Assembly: GCF_016595675.1 (NCBI RefSeq)
Contig: NZ_JAENJH010000003.1
Span: 310,001 to 374,000, forward strand
Source of the DNA: Prauserella cavernicola
GTDB taxonomy: Bacteria > Actinomycetota > Actinomycetes > Mycobacteriales > Pseudonocardiaceae
Length of the DNA: 64,000 bases
Direction: 5' to 3'
A program made the translations under genes and the position numbers. Within the stretch, counting starts at the first letter, position 1. Each line of letters opens with the position of its first letter. The notes under the pieces are model-generated. The model was not told the DNA's origin. It saw nothing but the letters and a program-made list of their open reading frames with translations, and did not search any database. This document shows, piece by piece, positions 4,035 to 10,035 of this stretch.

Positions 4035-4442
4035 TCACGGGCGAAGTTCGGCCCACACGATCTTGCCGTCGGGCGTCTCGGAGACACCCCAGTCGTCCGC
4101 CATCGCCGAGATGAGCAGCATGCCGCGCCCGTTCTGTTGGTCCGGGGCGGGATCGCGCAGCACCGGCGGTGTCCGGTTGCTGTCACCGACCTCGATGCGC
4201 AGCAGTTCACCGGCACGCAGCAGGCGGAGGGAGGCGGGCGCGTCGCCGTGCAGCACGGCGTTGGTGACGAGTTCGGTGACGATCAGCAGGATGCTCTGGC
4301 GGGTGCCGTCGTCGAGAGAGCCGAGCACCTCGTCGGTGGCGTGCCTGGCCTCCGACGGCATCCGTTGATCCGCCCGCAGCCGCAGTTCCAGCAGCACGGT
4401 GCCGGACGAGCGGTCCGTCTGCTCAGTCATCCGGCCCGTCAC
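4035..4442 (-). CDS. Serine-kinase-like ATPase, anti-sigma factor type (RsbW-like)
   Basis: This 135-residue protein has a single GHKL ATPase fold of the anti-sigma kind. The N box is VTELVTNAVLHG (about residues 55-66), the G1 box is the EVGDSN segment, and the G2-like box is NGRGMLLISAMADDWGV. Members of this family bind a sigma factor or phosphorylate a STAS antagonist. Its start overlaps the end of the STAS gene by 20 nt, so the two form one operon transcribed away from the rsbR-rsbU operon. That makes it the natural partner of the STAS protein at 4423-4800. No sigma factor gene adjoins it. Confidence 0.8.
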   Translation of the reverse strand: MTGRMTEQTDRSSGTVLLELRLRADQRMPSEARHATDEVLGSLDDGTRQSILLIVTELVTNAVLHGDAPASLRLLRAGELLRIEVGDSNRTPPVLRDPAPDQQNGRGMLLISAMADDWGVSETPDGKIVWAELRP

Positions 4443-4800
4443 CGGCGTCGCTCGCCCGCTCGATCTCGAAGAGCGGAACGAGGCCGGCGATCTGCAGGAC
4501 CCGGTAGGCGAACCGGTCCACGTTGACGAGCTTGACGGAGCCTCCGCGCTCGGTCACGGTCGTGTGCGCCCTGACCAGAGCGCTGATGCAGGCCGAGTCG
4601 AAAAACGACAGCCGGGCGAAGTCCACCACGAGCCTGCCCGCTCCGGCGGAGAACAGGGAGTCCAGTGCGGCTTCCAGTTGCGGCGCGACTCCATGGTCGA
4701 TCTCACCGCTCAGCGCGATGTGTCCCTCGCCGTCGCTCACGAGCTCGGCGTGGACGACCGTCGTCGTGGTGGCACCCGTTGGTTCGTCGCCGTTGGTCAT
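4423..4800 (-). CDS. STAS-domain anti-sigma factor antagonist (RsbV-like)
   Basis: This 125-residue protein is one STAS domain. The strand IALSGEIDH lies near residue 28, and LVVDFARLSFFDSACISAL near residues 58-76 contains the serine (FFDSACIS) normally phosphorylated by the partner kinase and dephosphorylated by a PP2C phosphatase. ATG 4800 is preceded by AGGAGAG at good spacing. It is the first gene of a leftward two-gene operon with the ATPase and is divergent from the rsbR operon across 164 bp. It could be the output target of the two PP2C phosphatases encoded on the other side. Confidence 0.82.
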   Translation of the reverse strand: MTNGDEPTGATTTTVVHAELVSDGEGHIALSGEIDHGVAPQLEAALDSLFSAGAGRLVVDFARLSFFDSACISALVRAHTTVTERGGSVKLVNVDRFAYRVLQIAGLVPLFEIERASDAGDGPDD

Positions 4801-4891
4801 GGTCCGGTCTCTCCTGGTCGTGCTCGGTGAGCATGTGCCTGGGTTTGAACCTCCCCTGGAGGTCGGTCATGCTGTGCCCTAAGTTTGCCAG

Positions 4892-4908
4892 GAGGATCGC
4901 GAATCCTC
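4892..4908. promoter_or_regulatory. Inverted repeat in the divergent rsb intergenic region
   Basis: GAGGAT (4892-4897) and ATCCTC (4903-4908) form a perfect 6-bp inverted repeat with a 5-base centre. It sits between the leftward STAS gene and the rightward rsbR gene. It may be an operator or a fortuitous hairpin. I saw no convincing sigma-B-type promoter (GTTT...GGGTA) in these 164 bp. Confidence 0.25.
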
Positions 4909-4964
4909 AGCGCGACGACCTGTGCCGAGCAATATCACCCAAGGGCGCCATGGAGGACAACAGG

Positions 4965-5819
4965 ATGACCGCCGGTTCCGACCCGACGATCAGGGACAGC
5001 GTGACGGCGTTCTTGAAGGATCACCGGCAGGACATCGAGCGGGTCTGGGCGTCCACCGCTCTGTTCACCGCCCGCAGGCCGGCCGACGCCGCCGAGGAGT
5101 GCTCCGAGCTGCTCACCGGGATCGTCGAGGTGATCGTCTCGGGTGGCGAGGAGAACGCGGCGGCGACGGGTTTCGCGTCGGTGCGCCCGGTGCTGACGTC
5201 ACTGGCCGCCCGCTCCGCCGGGGGGCCGTCCGGCAGCGACCGGCCAGACGTCACGGTGCTGAAGGGGCCGCTGCTGAGGCTCTGGCACGACCGGGCGCCC
5301 GCGGAGACGGCCTACCGCGGCGACCTCCTGCTGTCGAACGTCCTCAACACCCTCCGCATCGCGCTGCTGGAGATCGAGCTCTCCGCGGGGGCGGACACGA
5401 TCCTCGCCCAGCGCGCTCAGCTCACCGAGCTGTCGACCCCGGTGATCAAGCTGTGGGACGGCATCCTCGCCATTCCGCTCATCGGCACGCTCGACAGCAC
5501 GCGTGGCCAGACGGCGACGGAGAGCCTGCTCGAGCAGATCGTCGCCCAGCACGCGCGGGTGGCGATCCTCGACATCACCGGCGTCACGGCCGTGGACACC
5601 CTTGTCGCGCAACACCTGCTGAAGACCGCGGTCGCTGCCAGGCTGATGGGCGCGGAGTGCATCATCAGCGGCATCCGGCCGCAGATCGCCCAGACGATGG
5701 TGCAGCTCGGTATCGACCTCGGCGAGGTGGCCACGCGCGCGACGCTCGCCGACGCCTTCGCGCGGGGACTGAGCATCATCGGGATGAAGGTCTCCAATGA
5801 CGAGCGGAACGCCGGGTAG
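4965..5819 (+). CDS. rsbR: RsbR-type stressosome sensor/STAS protein
   Basis: This 284-residue protein has an N-terminal helical sensor region (residues 1-150). The conserved RsbR linker follows (ELSTPVIKLWDGILAIPLIG and then LDSTRGQ), and after it a C-terminal STAS domain with LDITGVTAVDTLVAQHLL. There the threonine after VD is the likely RsbT phosphorylation site. In Bacillus such proteins build the stressosome core with RsbS and hold RsbT. ATG 4965 is chosen over ATG 4950 because GGAGGA lies 7 nt upstream of it. It is the first of five tightly packed genes (rsbR-S-T-ATPase/PP2C-rsbU). The sensor region has no haem-globin or LOV signature that I can see, so the signal is unknown. Confidence 0.85.
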   Translation: MTAGSDPTIRDSVTAFLKDHRQDIERVWASTALFTARRPADAAEECSELLTGIVEVIVSGGEENAAATGFASVRPVLTSLAARSAGGPSGSDRPDVTVLKGPLLRLWHDRAPAETAYRGDLLLSNVLNTLRIALLEIELSAGADTILAQRAQLTELSTPVIKLWDGILAIPLIGTLDSTRGQTATESLLEQIVAQHARVAILDITGVTAVDTLVAQHLLKTAVAARLMGAECIISGIRPQIAQTMVQLGIDLGEVATRATLADAFARGLSIIGMKVSNDERNAG

Positions 5820-5825
5820 ACGACC

Positions 5826-6188
5826 ATGAGCAGGACCTCCGTCATCGAGCTGCAGGACGTGCTGCTGGTGACGATCCAGGGCGAACTGACCGACCGCGAT
5901 GCCATGGCGTTGCAGGAGGAGCTCACCAGCAGCGTCGCGAGCAGCAGCGCGCGCGGCGTGCTCATCGACGTCTCCGGGCTCGACATCGTCGACTCGTTCC
6001 TCGCCAGGACGTTGCACGACATCGCAGCCGCGAGCGCCTTGCTCGCGGCCGACACCGTGGTCGTGGGAATGCGGCCCGAGGTGGCCATCACGCTCGTGGA
6101 GCTCGGGTTGACCCTGCCGGGACTCGGCACGGCACTGACTGTCGCGGACGGGATGGACAAGCTGAACGGCTCCGCGAGGCCGCGATGA
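5826..6188 (+). CDS. rsbS: RsbS-type stressosome STAS protein
   Basis: This 120-residue protein is a stand-alone STAS domain. SGLDIVDSFLARTLHDIA (around residues 48-65) contains the serine in VDSFLAR that RsbT phosphorylates in RsbS orthologues. It lies 6 nt after rsbR and overlaps rsbT by 4 nt (ATGA). In known stressosomes, phosphorylation of RsbS is the step that releases RsbT. The protein's length matches Bacillus RsbS. Confidence 0.88.
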   Translation: MSRTSVIELQDVLLVTIQGELTDRDAMALQEELTSSVASSSARGVLIDVSGLDIVDSFLARTLHDIAAASALLAADTVVVGMRPEVAITLVELGLTLPGLGTALTVADGMDKLNGSARPR

Positions 6189-6613
6189 CCGACATCCTCA
6201 CCGTGCACGAAGTGCGGATCAACGAGGAGATCGACATCGTTCACGTCCGGCAGGCCGCGAGGGACCTGGCGGTGTCGGTGGGATTCTCCCTCGTGGAACA
6301 GACGAAGCTCGTGACGGCGGCGAGCGAGCTCGCGCGCAACACGCTCGTGCACGGCAACGGCGGGCGAGCCAGGATCGAGCTGGGCCGCGCCCTCGACGGC
6401 ACCCCGACGCTGCGGCTCGCGTTCACCGACACCGGCCCCGGCATCGCCGACATCGACCAGGCGCTCACCGACGGCTACAGCAGTGCGGGCGGGCTGGGTC
6501 TCGGGTTGAGCGGTGCGCGCAGGCTCGCCGACGACTTCGACCTGGACACCGAACCCGGGAAGGGAACGACCGTGACGGTCGGGTTCCGCGCGCGCAGACC
6601 GGCGCGCGGATGA
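6185..6613 (+). CDS. rsbT: RsbT-type serine/threonine kinase (switch protein)
   Basis: This 142-residue GHKL ATPase has an N box with ASELARNTLVHGNGG and a G1 box FTDTGPGIADI. A G2 segment GGLGLGLSGARRLADDF follows, then GKGTTV. This is the RsbT rather than the RsbW pattern. RsbT phosphorylates RsbS/RsbR and, once released, activates the RsbU phosphatase. The gene overlaps both rsbS and the following gene by 4 nt, so the subunits are probably made in fixed ratio. Confidence 0.88.
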   Translation: MTDILTVHEVRINEEIDIVHVRQAARDLAVSVGFSLVEQTKLVTAASELARNTLVHGNGGRARIELGRALDGTPTLRLAFTDTGPGIADIDQALTDGYSSAGGLGLGLSGARRLADDFDLDTEPGKGTTVTVGFRARRPARG

Positions 6614-7608
6614 CGGACTCCGTGCTCCCGGTCAGTGAGCCGGTGCACGTCGGCCAGGCCCGCTCCCTGGCCACGGCGGTGGCCCGCGGGCAGGACCTGC
6701 CCGACGAGCTCGTCGACCGCGTGGCCCTCACGGCGTCCGAGCTGGCGACGAACCTGGTCAAGTACGCCAGGGGCGGGCTGCTCGCGGTGAGCACGGGGCC
6801 GCTGGGGCTGGACCTGATCGCGACAGACTCGGGTCCCGGCCTGCGCGACGTCGAGGACAGCATGCGCGACGGGTTCTCCACCGCGGGTTCGATGGGGGCC
6901 GGGCTGGGCTCGGTGCGCAGGCTCGCCGACCGGTTCGACGTCTTCACGAGGCGCGGCGAGGGAACCACGGTGCTCGCGCGCTGGGTGCGCGGAACGCCCC
7001 AGTGGCGCGGCGTGCGGATCGGCAGCGTGCTGTTCACCGCGCCGGGGGAGACGGTCAGCGGGGACGGCTGGACCGCGGTCACGGCCGAGGGCATCGTGAC
7101 CATCGTGCTCACCGACGGGCTCGGTCACGGACCCCTCGCCGCCGAGGCGAGCGAGGCGGCGATCGGGCACGTCGCGGCAGACCCCCGTGGCTCGCCCGCC
7201 GCGCTGCTGGCCGCGATGGACGACGACCCCGCCGCCGCACGCGGAGCGACGGTCGCGCTCGCGCAGTTCGATCTCGCCAGGGGGACACTGACGTTCTCCG
7301 GCGTCGGCAACATCACCGCTCGCCTGCTCGGCGAGGGCGGCGCTCGCGAGACACTGGTATCGGTTCCCGGGATCGTGGGGAGGAGGCAGCGGCGGGGGCG
7401 GCGGGCGAACGCGCTGGTCCGGCCCTGGTCCGCCGAGAGCTGGTTGATCATGCACACCGACGGAGTGTCCGAACGCTGGGCCTCGAGCGACTGGCCCGGC
7501 CTGTTCGAGCACGACCCCGCGACCGTGGCAGGCTGGGTGCTCGGGCAGCACATCCGGCTGCGGGACGACGCGTGTGTGCTCGCCATCGCCGGAGGTGAGG
7601 GTCCGTGA
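6610..7608 (+). CDS. Fused GHKL ATPase and RsbX-like PP2C phosphatase
   Basis: This 332-residue protein joins two modules. Residues 1-125 are a second RsbT-like ATPase (ASELATNLVKYARGG, TDSGPGLRDVED, GSMGAGLGSVRRLADRF). Residues 135-330 are a SpoIIE/RsbX-type phosphatase with likely metal aspartates in SGDGW, LTDGLGHG, HTDGVSER and RDDACVLA. RsbX in Bacillus dephosphorylates RsbS and RsbR to reset the stressosome. A fusion with an RsbT-like domain would place kinase and reset phosphatase activities in one chain. It overlaps rsbT and the next gene by 4 nt each. Which partner each half acts on is inference. Confidence 0.8.
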   Translation: MTDSVLPVSEPVHVGQARSLATAVARGQDLPDELVDRVALTASELATNLVKYARGGLLAVSTGPLGLDLIATDSGPGLRDVEDSMRDGFSTAGSMGAGLGSVRRLADRFDVFTRRGEGTTVLARWVRGTPQWRGVRIGSVLFTAPGETVSGDGWTAVTAEGIVTIVLTDGLGHGPLAAEASEAAIGHVAADPRGSPAALLAAMDDDPAAARGATVALAQFDLARGTLTFSGVGNITARLLGEGGARETLVSVPGIVGRRQRRGRRANALVRPWSAESWLIMHTDGVSERWASSDWPGLFEHDPATVAGWVLGQHIRLRDDACVLAIAGGEGP

Positions 7609-8990
7609 CCACCGAACCGCGGCCTGCCGGCGAGCTGAGGGCCGAGGTCGAGCGGATCCTGCGAGACCGGAACTCCGCGCCCGAGCGGCTGCTCTCGATC
7701 ACCGACGCCCTCGATGCGGACGGCACCGTCGCCGAGGTGCTCGGCCTGCTCACCGAGGTGATCCGCGAGCAGCAGGGCGAACTGCGCTGGCACCAGTCAG
7801 AGCTGGAGCAGACCAATGCGGGCCTGCTCGCGCTGCACGCCGAGATCGACCGGCAACGCCAGCGCACCGTCTTCCTCGACGACGTCAGCCGCGCGTCGGC
7901 GACCTCGCTGGACAGCGTCGAGATGCTCGACCAGGTCGCCGCGCTGCTGCGCCGCCACGGCCTGGCCCACCGCACACTCGTGTGGACGGCCGCGGACTAC
8001 GGCCTCGTGTGTCCTGCAGACCCGCATCTCGGGCCGGACGAGGTGACGCTGCGGGCCTTCGCCTCGCACGAACCGGTCCAGCACGGGAGCAGCCGCGTCA
8101 GCGTGCCGCTCACGGCGGGCCCGCACGTGCTCGGCGTCTTCGACCTGCACCGCGACTCGGCCGAGTTCGACCACGAGGACATCGCGCTCGCCAAGGCCGT
8201 GGCCAACCGCGCCGCCGTCGGTCTGCGCAACGCCAACGAGTACGAGCGCGAGCACGAGCTGGCCGAGCGGTTGCAGCGCGCGATGCTGCCCACGCCCGTC
8301 TCGCACGACGAGCTCGACATCGTCGCCAGGTACCGCTCGGCGACGCGGGGAGTGCACGTCGGCGGCGACTGGTACGACGCGTTCCAGCGCCCGGACGGCA
8401 CCGTCGTGCTCACGGTCGGCGACGTGACCGGCCACGGGCTCGACGCCGCCGTCGTGATGGGCAAACTGCAGAACGTGTTGCGGGCCTACGCCATCGAGGG
8501 CCACGGCCCCTCGGCGTCGCTGCGGCTGGTGCACGACCTGCTGCGCGGCGAACCGGGCCTGCTGTTCGCCACCGCCGTGGTCGCCGAGATCGAGCTCGGC
8601 ACCGGGGTGATGCGCTGGGCCAGCGCGGGCCACCCACCGCCGCTGCTGCAGGACCGCGACGGGTCGGTGCGGTACCTCGACCTCGCACACGGGCCGATGC
8701 TCGGCGTCAACATCCCGTTCGACATCCCCGAGCACGAACGGCCGCTCGTGCCGGGTTCGTCGGTGGTGCTCTACACCGACGGGCTCATCGAGCGCCGCTC
8801 CAGCGACATCGACGCCGGTCTCGAGCGGCTGGCGGGGGCGTTCACGGCGTGCGAGGCCGAGCGGCTCACGGAGCGCACCGAGTACGTGCTGACGACGATG
8901 CTCGGCGACTCCGACCACGACGACGACGTCTGTGTGCTGCTGTGCCGCTGGGCCGGTCCCTCGGAAACCGGGGGCCGGGCGTCCGCCTGA
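7605..8990 (+). CDS. rsbU: RsbU-like PP2C phosphatase with coiled coil and GAF-like domain
   Basis: This 461-residue protein starts with an all-helical segment (residues 1-85) rich in Glu, Gln and Arg that could form a coiled coil. A GAF-like region follows (about 85-210), then a SpoIIE-type PP2C domain (about 225-455). The metal-binding motifs GGDWYDAF, VGDVTGHGLDAA, YTDGLIERR and HDDDVCVLLCR are all present, so it should be active. By analogy with RsbU it would dephosphorylate the STAS antagonist at 4423-4800 after being switched on by RsbT. It is the last gene of the rsbR operon. Only a short gap separates it from the iron-regulated lipoprotein gene. Confidence 0.85.
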   Translation: MTTEPRPAGELRAEVERILRDRNSAPERLLSITDALDADGTVAEVLGLLTEVIREQQGELRWHQSELEQTNAGLLALHAEIDRQRQRTVFLDDVSRASATSLDSVEMLDQVAALLRRHGLAHRTLVWTAADYGLVCPADPHLGPDEVTLRAFASHEPVQHGSSRVSVPLTAGPHVLGVFDLHRDSAEFDHEDIALAKAVANRAAVGLRNANEYEREHELAERLQRAMLPTPVSHDELDIVARYRSATRGVHVGGDWYDAFQRPDGTVVLTVGDVTGHGLDAAVVMGKLQNVLRAYAIEGHGPSASLRLVHDLLRGEPGLLFATAVVAEIELGTGVMRWASAGHPPPLLQDRDGSVRYLDLAHGPMLGVNIPFDIPEHERPLVPGSSVVLYTDGLIERRSSDIDAGLERLAGAFTACEAERLTERTEYVLTTMLGDSDHDDDVCVLLCRWAGPSETGGRASA

Positions 8991-9012
8991 TCACACTCGC
9001 TTCCCGAGTTAT

Positions 9013-9031
9013 TTAGGTATGGCTAAGTTAA
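9013..9031 (+). promoter_or_regulatory. IdeR/DtxR iron box
   Basis: TTAGGTATGGCTAAGTTAA matches the 19-bp DtxR/IdeR consensus (TTAGGTTAGGCTAACCTAA) at 15 of 19 positions, including both outer and central elements. It lies just before the lipoprotein start at 9037 and overlaps a possible -10 (TAAGTT). Binding of Fe(II)-loaded IdeR here should repress the lipoprotein-amidase pair when iron is plentiful. Confidence 0.75.
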
Positions 9032-9036
9032 CTCGC

Positions 9037-10035
9037 ATGGTTTCCCCACTCTCCCGCCGGAGCCTGCTCGGCGGTGCCGCCGCACTCGCCGCCACGGGCC
9101 TGCTCAGCGCGTGCGGCCGCGGCGCCTCCGACTCGACCCCGTCCGGTTCGGGCGGCTGGACGTTCACCGACGACACCGGTGTCACGGTGAACCTCGACGC
9201 CCCGCCCGCCAAGATCGCCGGACTCAACGACGCCGTCGCGTCGCTGTGGAACTACGGCATCACCCCGGTCGGCGCCTTCGGCCAGACGAGCATCGCCGAC
9301 GACGTGAACTTCGAGGGCAGGGACCTCTCGAAGGTCACGGAGCTGGGCGGAACCTACGGCGAGATCAACGTCGAGAAGCTCGCCAACGCGGCGCCCGACC
9401 TGATCCTGACCCACGCCTATCCGCTGGACTCCTCGGGCAAGATCGACCCGGAGAAGCCGTTCTTCGGCTTCAAGGACCTCGAACAGCAGAAGCTCGTCGG
9501 CGAGATCGCGCCGATCGTCGCGCTGGCGATGAAGGGCTCCGCGACCGGCGTCGTCGACCGCACCGTCGAGTTCGCGAAGTCGATCGGCGTCACCGAGGCG
9601 ACGCTCGCGGGCCCGCGTGAGCAGTACGAGGCCGCCCGCACCCGGCTGGAGCAGGCCACGAAGTCCGGACTGACGGTGATGGCCGTCGCGGCCTACCAGG
9701 GCGAGGGCGTCCACATCGCGAAGGCACCCGACGACCCGGCGTTGCGCAGCTACACCGAACTGGGCCTGAACTACCACGACCCCGGCGGCTCCGTGTACTT
9801 CTGGGAGCAGGTGAGCTGGGAGAACATCGGCGAACACCCCGTCGACGTCGTGCTCTACTCGCTGCGCGCGATGACCGGCGAGCAGATGCTCACGCAGCCG
9901 ACGTTCGCCATCACCCCGGCCGCCGAGGCGGGCCAGGTGTTCCCGTGGGAGTTCAGCTCGATGGACTACGTCGCCCAGGCCCGCGCCCTCGACAATCTCG
10001 CCGAGAACCTGGAGCGCTCCCGTAAGGTCACCTGA
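9037..10035 (+). CDS. Iron-siderophore ABC transporter substrate-binding lipoprotein
   Basis: This 332-residue protein begins with a twin-arginine signal (SPLSRRSLLGG), a hydrophobic stretch and a lipobox LSAC. It should be folded before export and anchored in the membrane. The mature part has the class III binding-protein pattern (FTDDTGVTVNLDAPPAKIAG..., then ELGGTYGEINVEKLANAAPD) used for Fe-siderophores, haem or cobalamin. ATG 9037 is favoured over ATG 9019, which lies inside the iron box. The gene overlaps the amidase start by one base. No permease or ATPase of the ABC system is nearby, so it must work with components encoded elsewhere. Confidence 0.85.
   Translation: MVSPLSRRSLLGGAAALAATGLLSACGRGASDSTPSGSGGWTFTDDTGVTVNLDAPPAKIAGLNDAVASLWNYGITPVGAFGQTSIADDVNFEGRDLSKVTELGGTYGEINVEKLANAAPDLILTHAYPLDSSGKIDPEKPFFGFKDLEQQKLVGEIAPIVALAMKGSATGVVDRTVEFAKSIGVTEATLAGPREQYEAARTRLEQATKSGLTVMAVAAYQGEGVHIAKAPDDPALRSYTELGLNYHDPGGSVYFWEQVSWENIGEHPVDVVLYSLRAMTGEQMLTQPTFAITPAAEAGQVFPWEFSSMDYVAQARALDNLAENLERSRKVT

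Follow-up and report, generated by a model that had tools for sequence, protein, structure and literature searches.

A complete set of stressosome and partner-switching genes lies near one end of a 64,000-nucleotide stretch of the Prauserella cavernicola genome (C33:310001-374000; contig NZ_JAENJH010000003.1 of assembly GCF_016595675.1), which is referred to here as the window. The genome comprises 7.2 Mb in 90 contigs. An original prediction, made from the sequence alone, described seven divergent genes at this locus, and all of these open reading frames were recovered with the same coordinates, strands and expected Pfam domains. The features of the locus are as follows.

4035..4442, minus strand: ATPase_div, a small GHKL ATPase (HATPase_c_2; Pfam PF13581, E 1.2e-12)
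4423..4800, minus strand: STAS_div, an RsbV/RsfB-like anti-sigma-factor antagonist (Pfam STAS; NCBIfam ant_ant_sig above cut-off)
4801..4949, no strand: divergent intergenic region between STAS_div and rsbR
4950..5819, plus strand: RsbR, an N-terminal domain and a C-terminal STAS domain (Pfam STAS and a sub-threshold RsbRD_N)
5826..6188, plus strand: RsbS, a single-STAS scaffold (Pfam STAS)
6185..6613, plus strand: RsbT, a GHKL switch kinase (Pfam HATPase_c)
6610..7608, plus strand: HX, a fusion of an RsbT-like ATPase and an RsbX-like PP2C domain (Pfam HATPase_c_2 and SpoIIE)
7605..8990, plus strand: RsbU, a phosphatase with coil, GAF and PP2C (SpoIIE) regions (Pfam GAF and SpoIIE)
7752..7880, plus strand: the conserved coil of RsbU, residues 50-92, with the core SELEQTNAGLLALHAEI, a proposed RsbT-docking element

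The four-nucleotide overlaps that were expected to link rsbS through rsbU are exact (6185-6188, 6610-6613 and 7605-7608), and rsbR is separated from rsbS by 6 nt. Relatives point to a start of rsbR at 4965 instead of 4950. On the opposite strand, ATPase_div overlaps STAS_div and could begin at 4442 (GTG) or 4430 (ATG). An Rfam search of the window gave no match. The set was also described as having no adjoining sigma factor, and this is correct: a genome-wide profile search found three SigB/F-type sigma factors, on contigs C22, C1 and C11, and none on C33, so the locus is not an operon of the Bacillus type. The profile was built partly from these three genes; across 27 genomes it scored such sigma factors at 291 bits or more and other hits at 121 or less. 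The seven-gene observation is thus confirmed, and as a set without an adjacent sigma factor it is ordinary.

The proteins resemble known stressosome components. The RsbR profile matches a solved RsbR (7b0u_A, E 5e-42), as expected of a stressosome, and no Pfam globin domain was matched in RsbR. Its Thr180 and Thr217, which we take to be the phospho-threonines, are invariant in all 18 aligned rows. RsbS, a single STAS domain carrying a serine, matches a solved RsbS (6qcm_A, E 3e-26), and its Ser57 (VDSF) aligns with the serine replaced by alanine in PDB 9o4r. RsbT is the GHKL protein encoded directly after rsbS; its N-box and glycine boxes are invariant (18/18 rows), and its best solved match by sequence is SpoIIAB (E 5e-4). 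The antagonist carries the motif FFDSAC, with Asp68 and Ser69 invariant in 13 of 13 rows, and the PP2C metal motifs are invariant in both the HX fusion (18/18 rows) and RsbU (16/16 rows). Within HX, the ATPase part (approximately residues 9-125) is RsbT-like (hhalign 99.7%), while the PP2C part (approximately residues 136-326) matches solved RsbX 3w40 (E 5e-22) and, better, the SpoIIE-type 3zt9 (E 8e-31). The RsbX-type PP2C directly 3' of rsbT that marks RSTX modules is therefore present here as a fusion to an RsbT-like ATPase. The earlier statement that all catalytic and phosphorylation motifs are intact applies to RsbR, RsbS, RsbT, the antagonist, the fusion and RsbU. It is slightly too strong for the ATPase at 4035, because this protein keeps its N-box and reads, by eye, DSNRTPP at the position where DxGxG is expected.

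This arrangement is widespread in the family. RsbS was matched (E <= 1e-6) in 60 of a sample of 150 family genomes, and neighbourhoods of approximately 9 kb on either side were compared at 60 places in 59 other genomes (two in G027), with genes called from codon usage. The order RsbR-RsbS-RsbT-HX is kept at all 60 places and in the window, and is followed at every one by an RsbU-like protein, either directly or behind a kinase gene. Recurrence of the core order on this scale is far beyond chance. Twenty-nine of the 60 RsbS genomes, this one included, encode an RsbU scoring at least 350 bits against that of the window, and are termed clade A. A further scan of named loci covered 80 of at least 592: 17 from Pseudonocardiaceae, which overlap the family sample, and 63 others, mostly Streptomyces. 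The RsbT-RsbX fusion was labelled in all 17 of the former and in 55 of the latter; some contigs in the scan end early.

The partner sigma factor is most likely encoded at a distance from this locus, which is probably a standard system in split form, in which the signal would run from RsbT to RsbU, the STAS antagonist, the RsbW encoded on contig C22 and, finally, SigF. Each biochemical step is predicted from gene content, motifs, conservation, neighbourhoods and co-occurrence. RsbR and RsbS would form a sensory core that holds the kinase RsbT. Under stress, RsbT would phosphorylate RsbR and RsbS, leave the core and bind RsbU through its conserved coil. Active RsbU would then strip phosphate from the antagonist (4423), which would draw the anti-sigma factor RsbW off SigF, allowing SigF to transcribe a stress regulon; the sigma paralogue on contig C1 may share the fate of SigF. 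To reset the system, the ATPase at 4035 would re-phosphorylate the antagonist, as RsbW2 does RsfB in Mycobacterium smegmatis, and the RsbT-RsbX fusion, a putative feedback phosphatase, would restore RsbR and RsbS.

The early part of this pathway is suggested by the distribution of the antagonist. Relatives of STAS_div (E <= 1e-12) occur in 27 of 29 clade-A genomes, G009 and G111 being without a match, and in only five of 121 others, namely G014, G010, G023, G061 and G100 (Fisher 2e-22, relatedness ignored). Genome G014, from the same genus and 99% complete, represents a natural deletion of the stressosome core. At the thresholds used, it has no RsbR or RsbS match and nothing for RsbT beyond a 26-bit hit, and it retains adjacent genes for RsbU, antagonist and ATPase. 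G010 (L230:4685-10415) carries RsbT, RsbU, the antagonist, the ATPase and a generic STAS gene; RsbS was not matched there, and RsbT may in this case work in the absence of a stressosome. Because the antagonist co-occurs with clade A, and because its pairing with RsbU is retained in G014 and G010, STAS_div is the proposed substrate on which RsbU would act.

For the later part, the best candidate is the pair on C22 (C22:361800-363040), where the sigma factor at C22:362237 directly follows rsbW, the order expected of a split switch. Both genes were matched in 150 of 150 family genomes, with adjacency checked only in part. Since they are universal, their presence alone gives no link to the stressosome; such a link is suggested by neighbourhoods. 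A SigF-type sigma factor lies within approximately 9 kb of the stressosome in five of 29 clade-A genomes (G001, G047, G029, G111 and G017). The probability of five or more such neighbours arising by chance is 6e-7, assuming two sigma factors per 7-Mb genome and ignoring relatedness (G001 and G047 belong to one genus). In two of the five, G001 and G047, the genes for antagonist, RsbW and SigF follow one another directly, and an RsbW-type gene occurs in the stretch around the stressosome in 13 of 29 clade-A genomes. Among the 80 named loci, a SigB-type sigma factor was present in the fetched stretch at three of 17 from Pseudonocardiaceae and 22 of the 63 others. Furthermore, a single SigB/F-type sigma factor was found in four of the 23 clade-A genomes examined: G044 and G034, each listed as a single contig and 99-100% complete, together with G068 and G096; for G034, G068 and G096, this count rests on scoring 94 of 107-115 first-look candidates.

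Several observations weigh against this assignment. SigF and RsbW were matched also in the 90 genomes without RsbS, and no SigF-type gene was found in the fetched stretch around the stressosome at 24 of 29 clade-A loci. The sigma factors that do lie beside stressosomes are paralogues on long branches and not the C22 orthologue. A SigB/F-type promoter motif was found upstream of rsbR at none of 29 loci (0.76 expected) and upstream of the antagonist at two of 27 (0.53 expected), the expectations coming from single-base shuffles. The promoter test has little power, because the motif is also rare upstream of the sigma genes (1/24, 0.28 expected) and the RsbW-type genes (0/16, 0.28 expected). Autoregulation through a SigB/F-type promoter is without support in this low-power test. 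Overall, of the two outputs originally put forward, a distant sigma factor is supported and a non-transcriptional target is not. It had also been suggested that a constant sigma-B-type partner elsewhere in the genome would make this a standard split system. That proposition is partly borne out by the universal sigF-rsbW genes, the lone SigF of some genomes and the sigma- and RsbW-type neighbours of others, although universality proves no partnership.

The C22 pair ranks first as the output, and the C1 sigma factor (C1:109186-109968), a second SigF-type gene, ranks second. That the C1 protein is the main output, restrained by either the ATPase at 4035 or the C22 RsbW, is unlikely, although it is the rival that deserves most weight. 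Its relatives occur in 15 genomes including this one, comprising 14 clade-A stressosome genomes and G014, which keeps RsbU and the antagonist; the C1 type is divided from universal SigF by a modest score gap (359 versus 349 bits). No RsbW-type gene adjoins the C1-type sigma factor here or at the eleven loci L233-L243, and the C1 protein passes the NCBIfam SigF cut-off of 372 bits (390.5), while the C22 protein falls narrowly under it (369.3). However, C1-type genes were not found in 15 of 29 clade-A genomes, their carriers may simply be related genera, and in G009 (L244) the gene does have an RsbW-type neighbour. Six of the 14 clade-A carriers (G041, G024, G020, G058, G077 and G009) have no local ATPase_div match. 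In a 39-row sigma tree, moreover, the stressosome-side sigma factors group with universal SigF (support 92/95), on long branches and with weak resolution near the root. The same tree is too weak near its root to choose between the C22 and C1 sigma factors. The C1 protein may nonetheless share the output with SigF.

A private output is less probable still. In this scheme, the ATPase at 4035 would be a dedicated anti-sigma factor, or a switch for a target other than a sigma factor. Its gene overlaps that of the antagonist and is retained in G014, and the protein scores 47 bits against the RsbA anti-sigma family, a weak similarity that stays below the 210-bit cut-off. Against this, its G1 box is divergent, and no ATPase_div match was found (tblastn, E <= 1e-4) around eight of 29 clade-A stressosome loci. 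Its candidacy as an obligatory anti-sigma factor was set aside, there being no copy in the fetched stretch of those eight loci. The RsbW2 precedent is that of a kinase only (PMC10950880). Antagonist and ATPase are encoded in one apparent operon (4423-4800 and 4035-4442, overlapping on the same strand), and because this arrangement matches M. smegmatis RsfB-RsbW2 in outline, we propose that the ATPase at 4035 is an RsbW2-like kinase of the STAS antagonist. A pull-down with this protein as bait, which had been recommended, is consequently less apt: it is unmatched around eight of 29 stressosomes, and the M. smegmatis counterpart is described as a kinase without SigF binding (PMC10950880).

Least probable, and very much so, is a non-transcriptional output, or one that works through a phosphorelay or a second messenger; such outputs have been proposed for the stressosome of Vibrio and for related ones. 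At the related clade-B loci, the operon does include a hybrid histidine kinase that shares the coil of RsbU, and globin-type modules have been associated with c-di-GMP or phosphorelay proteins (PMC9237108). In this genome, however, RsbU is the sole hit of the coil profile, and the usual neighbour of RsbU is an antagonist of the sigma-factor type. The C22 RsbW-SigF pair remains the favoured output.

Two side observations concern these sigma and RsbW-type genes. STAS genes beside the C1 and C11 sigma factors (L123:10706-11083 and L130:9296-9655) read FFGAAG and FFGAVG and lack a phosphorylatable serine; their products may be constitutive or inactive antagonists. At six of six g24 (Saccharomonospora-type) loci (L102, L103, L104, L106, L107 and L111), an RsbW-type gene is convergent to rsbU, and the g24 loci also have a second SigF-type gene without an RsbW-type neighbour.

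The split system requires a route from RsbT to RsbU. In Bacillus subtilis, RsbU is bound by RsbT at its N-terminal domain and linker (PMC12143880). The window RsbU has no RsbU_N hit at E values up to 0.05 and in this respect is not of the Bacillus type. Instead, a coil (residues 50-92) precedes the GAF domain. Across 31 sequences, 11 of its 43 columns are invariant. The corresponding counts are 13 of 123 for the GAF segment, 17 of 47 for the stretch linking GAF to the phosphatase domain, and 41 of 187 for PP2C. The motif TNxG[LVMI]x[AS][LM]x[AS]E[LVIM] (short form TNxGxxALxAE) was searched in 3097 genes called in L059-L138, L229-L248 and L279-L358, in which some named loci repeat genomes of the family sample. 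Of the 101 genes in which it was found, 100 are no more than four genes away from one for RsbT, and the exception encodes the RsbU of G014.

The carriers of the motif are of two kinds. In clade A and Streptomyces they are RsbU phosphatases; at 20 other loci of the family, termed clade B (L064-L067, L070-L076, L078, L079 and L082-L088), the carrier is a protein whose gene comes after HX and before the RsbU-like gene. Three of these clade-B proteins were scanned, and all are hybrid histidine kinases with HisKA and HATPase_c domains, two of them also showing a weak receiver match. The single phosphatase scanned from behind such a kinase is of the REC-PP2C type, suggesting a pathway from RsbT through the kinase to a REC-phosphatase. 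A profile of the coil (E <= 0.001) matched 64 of the 150 genomes, including all 60 with RsbS and four of 90 without: G014, G010, the 74%-complete draft G011 and, weakly, G012. With only one hit per protein counted, 68 coil positions were compared, and 61 of them are found 1.6-2.4 kb from rsbS; the other seven are those of these four genomes and second sites in G113, G105 and G083. Because the profile was made from stressosome-operon proteins, its positives are partly built in. The informative points are its near absence elsewhere, its attachment to two enzyme types and the changes seen in G014.

Fourteen coil columns are invariant in all 30 sequences other than that of G014, which has three changes at them; at 58 such columns of the following segment and PP2C, it has none (Fisher 0.006). 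Within its close group the figures are five of 22 against ten of 156 (Fisher 0.024). Comparable changes nevertheless occur where RsbT is present, two in G009 and one in G111. Since a single genome counts as one event, and this comparison was chosen after the fact, a tie between coil alteration and loss of RsbT is suggestive only.

The region ahead of the coil may also be related to RsbT. The N-terminus of the kinase resembles RsbT (hhalign 96.8%, E 2.5e-10), lacking by eye the ATP-binding boxes, and the N-termini of several RsbU relatives resemble its first half (hhalign 89% and 86%); in control comparisons, the antagonist profile reached 0.9% and the RsbR profile 0.1%. Compared directly, the kinase and RsbU N-termini gave 3.6%. 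The window RsbU appears by eye to lack the RsbT-like domain and keeps the coil. Tentatively, and with slightly less than even confidence, we suggest that a portable helix (TNxGxxALxAE) connects the stressosomes of Actinobacteria to their effectors, and that a degenerate RsbT-like domain often stands ahead of it. RsbT would dock on this helix and not on an RsbU_N bundle, a PP2C phosphatase or hybrid histidine kinase would be attached according to lineage, and the output could be read from the helix, or rewired through it.

Of these results, the one most worth specialist attention is the coil in its proposed role as a portable RsbT-docking element. The coil offers a concrete, mutable candidate link from RsbT to effectors without RsbU_N in Actinobacteria, and could allow prediction of which proteins a stressosome controls. 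How RsbT reaches the effectors of globin-type modules is an issue because these effectors vary and the majority are without RsbU_N (PMC9237108). Among open-licence papers, we found no published report of the RsbT-RsbX fusion or the RsbU coil, and none of RsbT docking without RsbU_N; a search for ALYAEL, the kinase form of the motif, returned nothing related by title.

Two kinds of neighbouring gene were noted in passing. A periplasmic-binding-protein gene (Peripla_BP_2, window 9016-10035) follows rsbU in this genus; an AT-rich stretch before it (9000-9035) resembles by eye what we take to be an iron-box pattern. A MarR-like regulator, recognised by eye, is found repeatedly next to the stressosome loci of Streptomyces and of some Pseudonocardiaceae, with examples at the following positions.

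L303:5949-6392, MarR-like regulator
L323:6050-6493, MarR-like regulator
L230:8657-9091, MarR-like regulator
L112:3202-3702, MarR-like regulator

Known systems provide close parallels for most of this arrangement. The sigB operon of B. subtilis has the same component types and phosphorylation logic (PMC9237108). Here, in contrast, there is no sigma factor in the operon and no RsbU_N hit, and the RsbX-like domain is part of a fusion protein encoded within the core. The stressosome of Mycobacterium marinum (rsbR, rsbS, rsbT, rsbX and rsbUW, with sigF-rsbW) likewise combines RsbRST and phosphatases with an independent sigF-rsbW pair, and SigF is its proposed output (PMC8115616). According to the same source, sigF and rsbW are almost universal in mycobacteria, independently of a patchy rsbRST set that its authors place upstream of SigF. 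Compared by description, the present locus differs in carrying RsbX as a fusion with an RsbT-like ATPase and in having a divergent antagonist-kinase pair.

A likeness for that pair is found in M. smegmatis where, as here, antagonist and kinase form one operon and anti-sigma factor and SigF another. According to PMC10950880, RsbW2, encoded with RsfB, phosphorylates RsfB and is unable to bind SigF. RsbW1, encoded next to sigF, is the anti-sigma factor, the rsfB-rsbW2 operon acts on RsbW1-SigF, and a PP2C phosphatase acts on the antagonist. The input there is the two-component system RsfSR, whereas here it would be a stressosome, the two being likened by description. Globin-coupled RSTX modules of Vibrio vulnificus and others also have RsbX directly after RsbT (PMC9237108). 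They differ from the present locus, in which RsbR has no globin hit and the output would be a PP2C phosphatase and an antagonist.

In Streptomyces coelicolor, the RsbV homologue SCO7325 presumably lies within an rsbRST locus. It is a partner-switch antagonist acting on SigB (SCO0600), and the two locus numbers are far apart (PMC8346170). Since the separation of sigF-rsbW from rsbRST in mycobacteria and the varied outputs of globin modules have both been published, the split form is already known. An ordinary general-stress switch can thus take the form of a stressosome with no sigma factor beside it, its parts having become separated.

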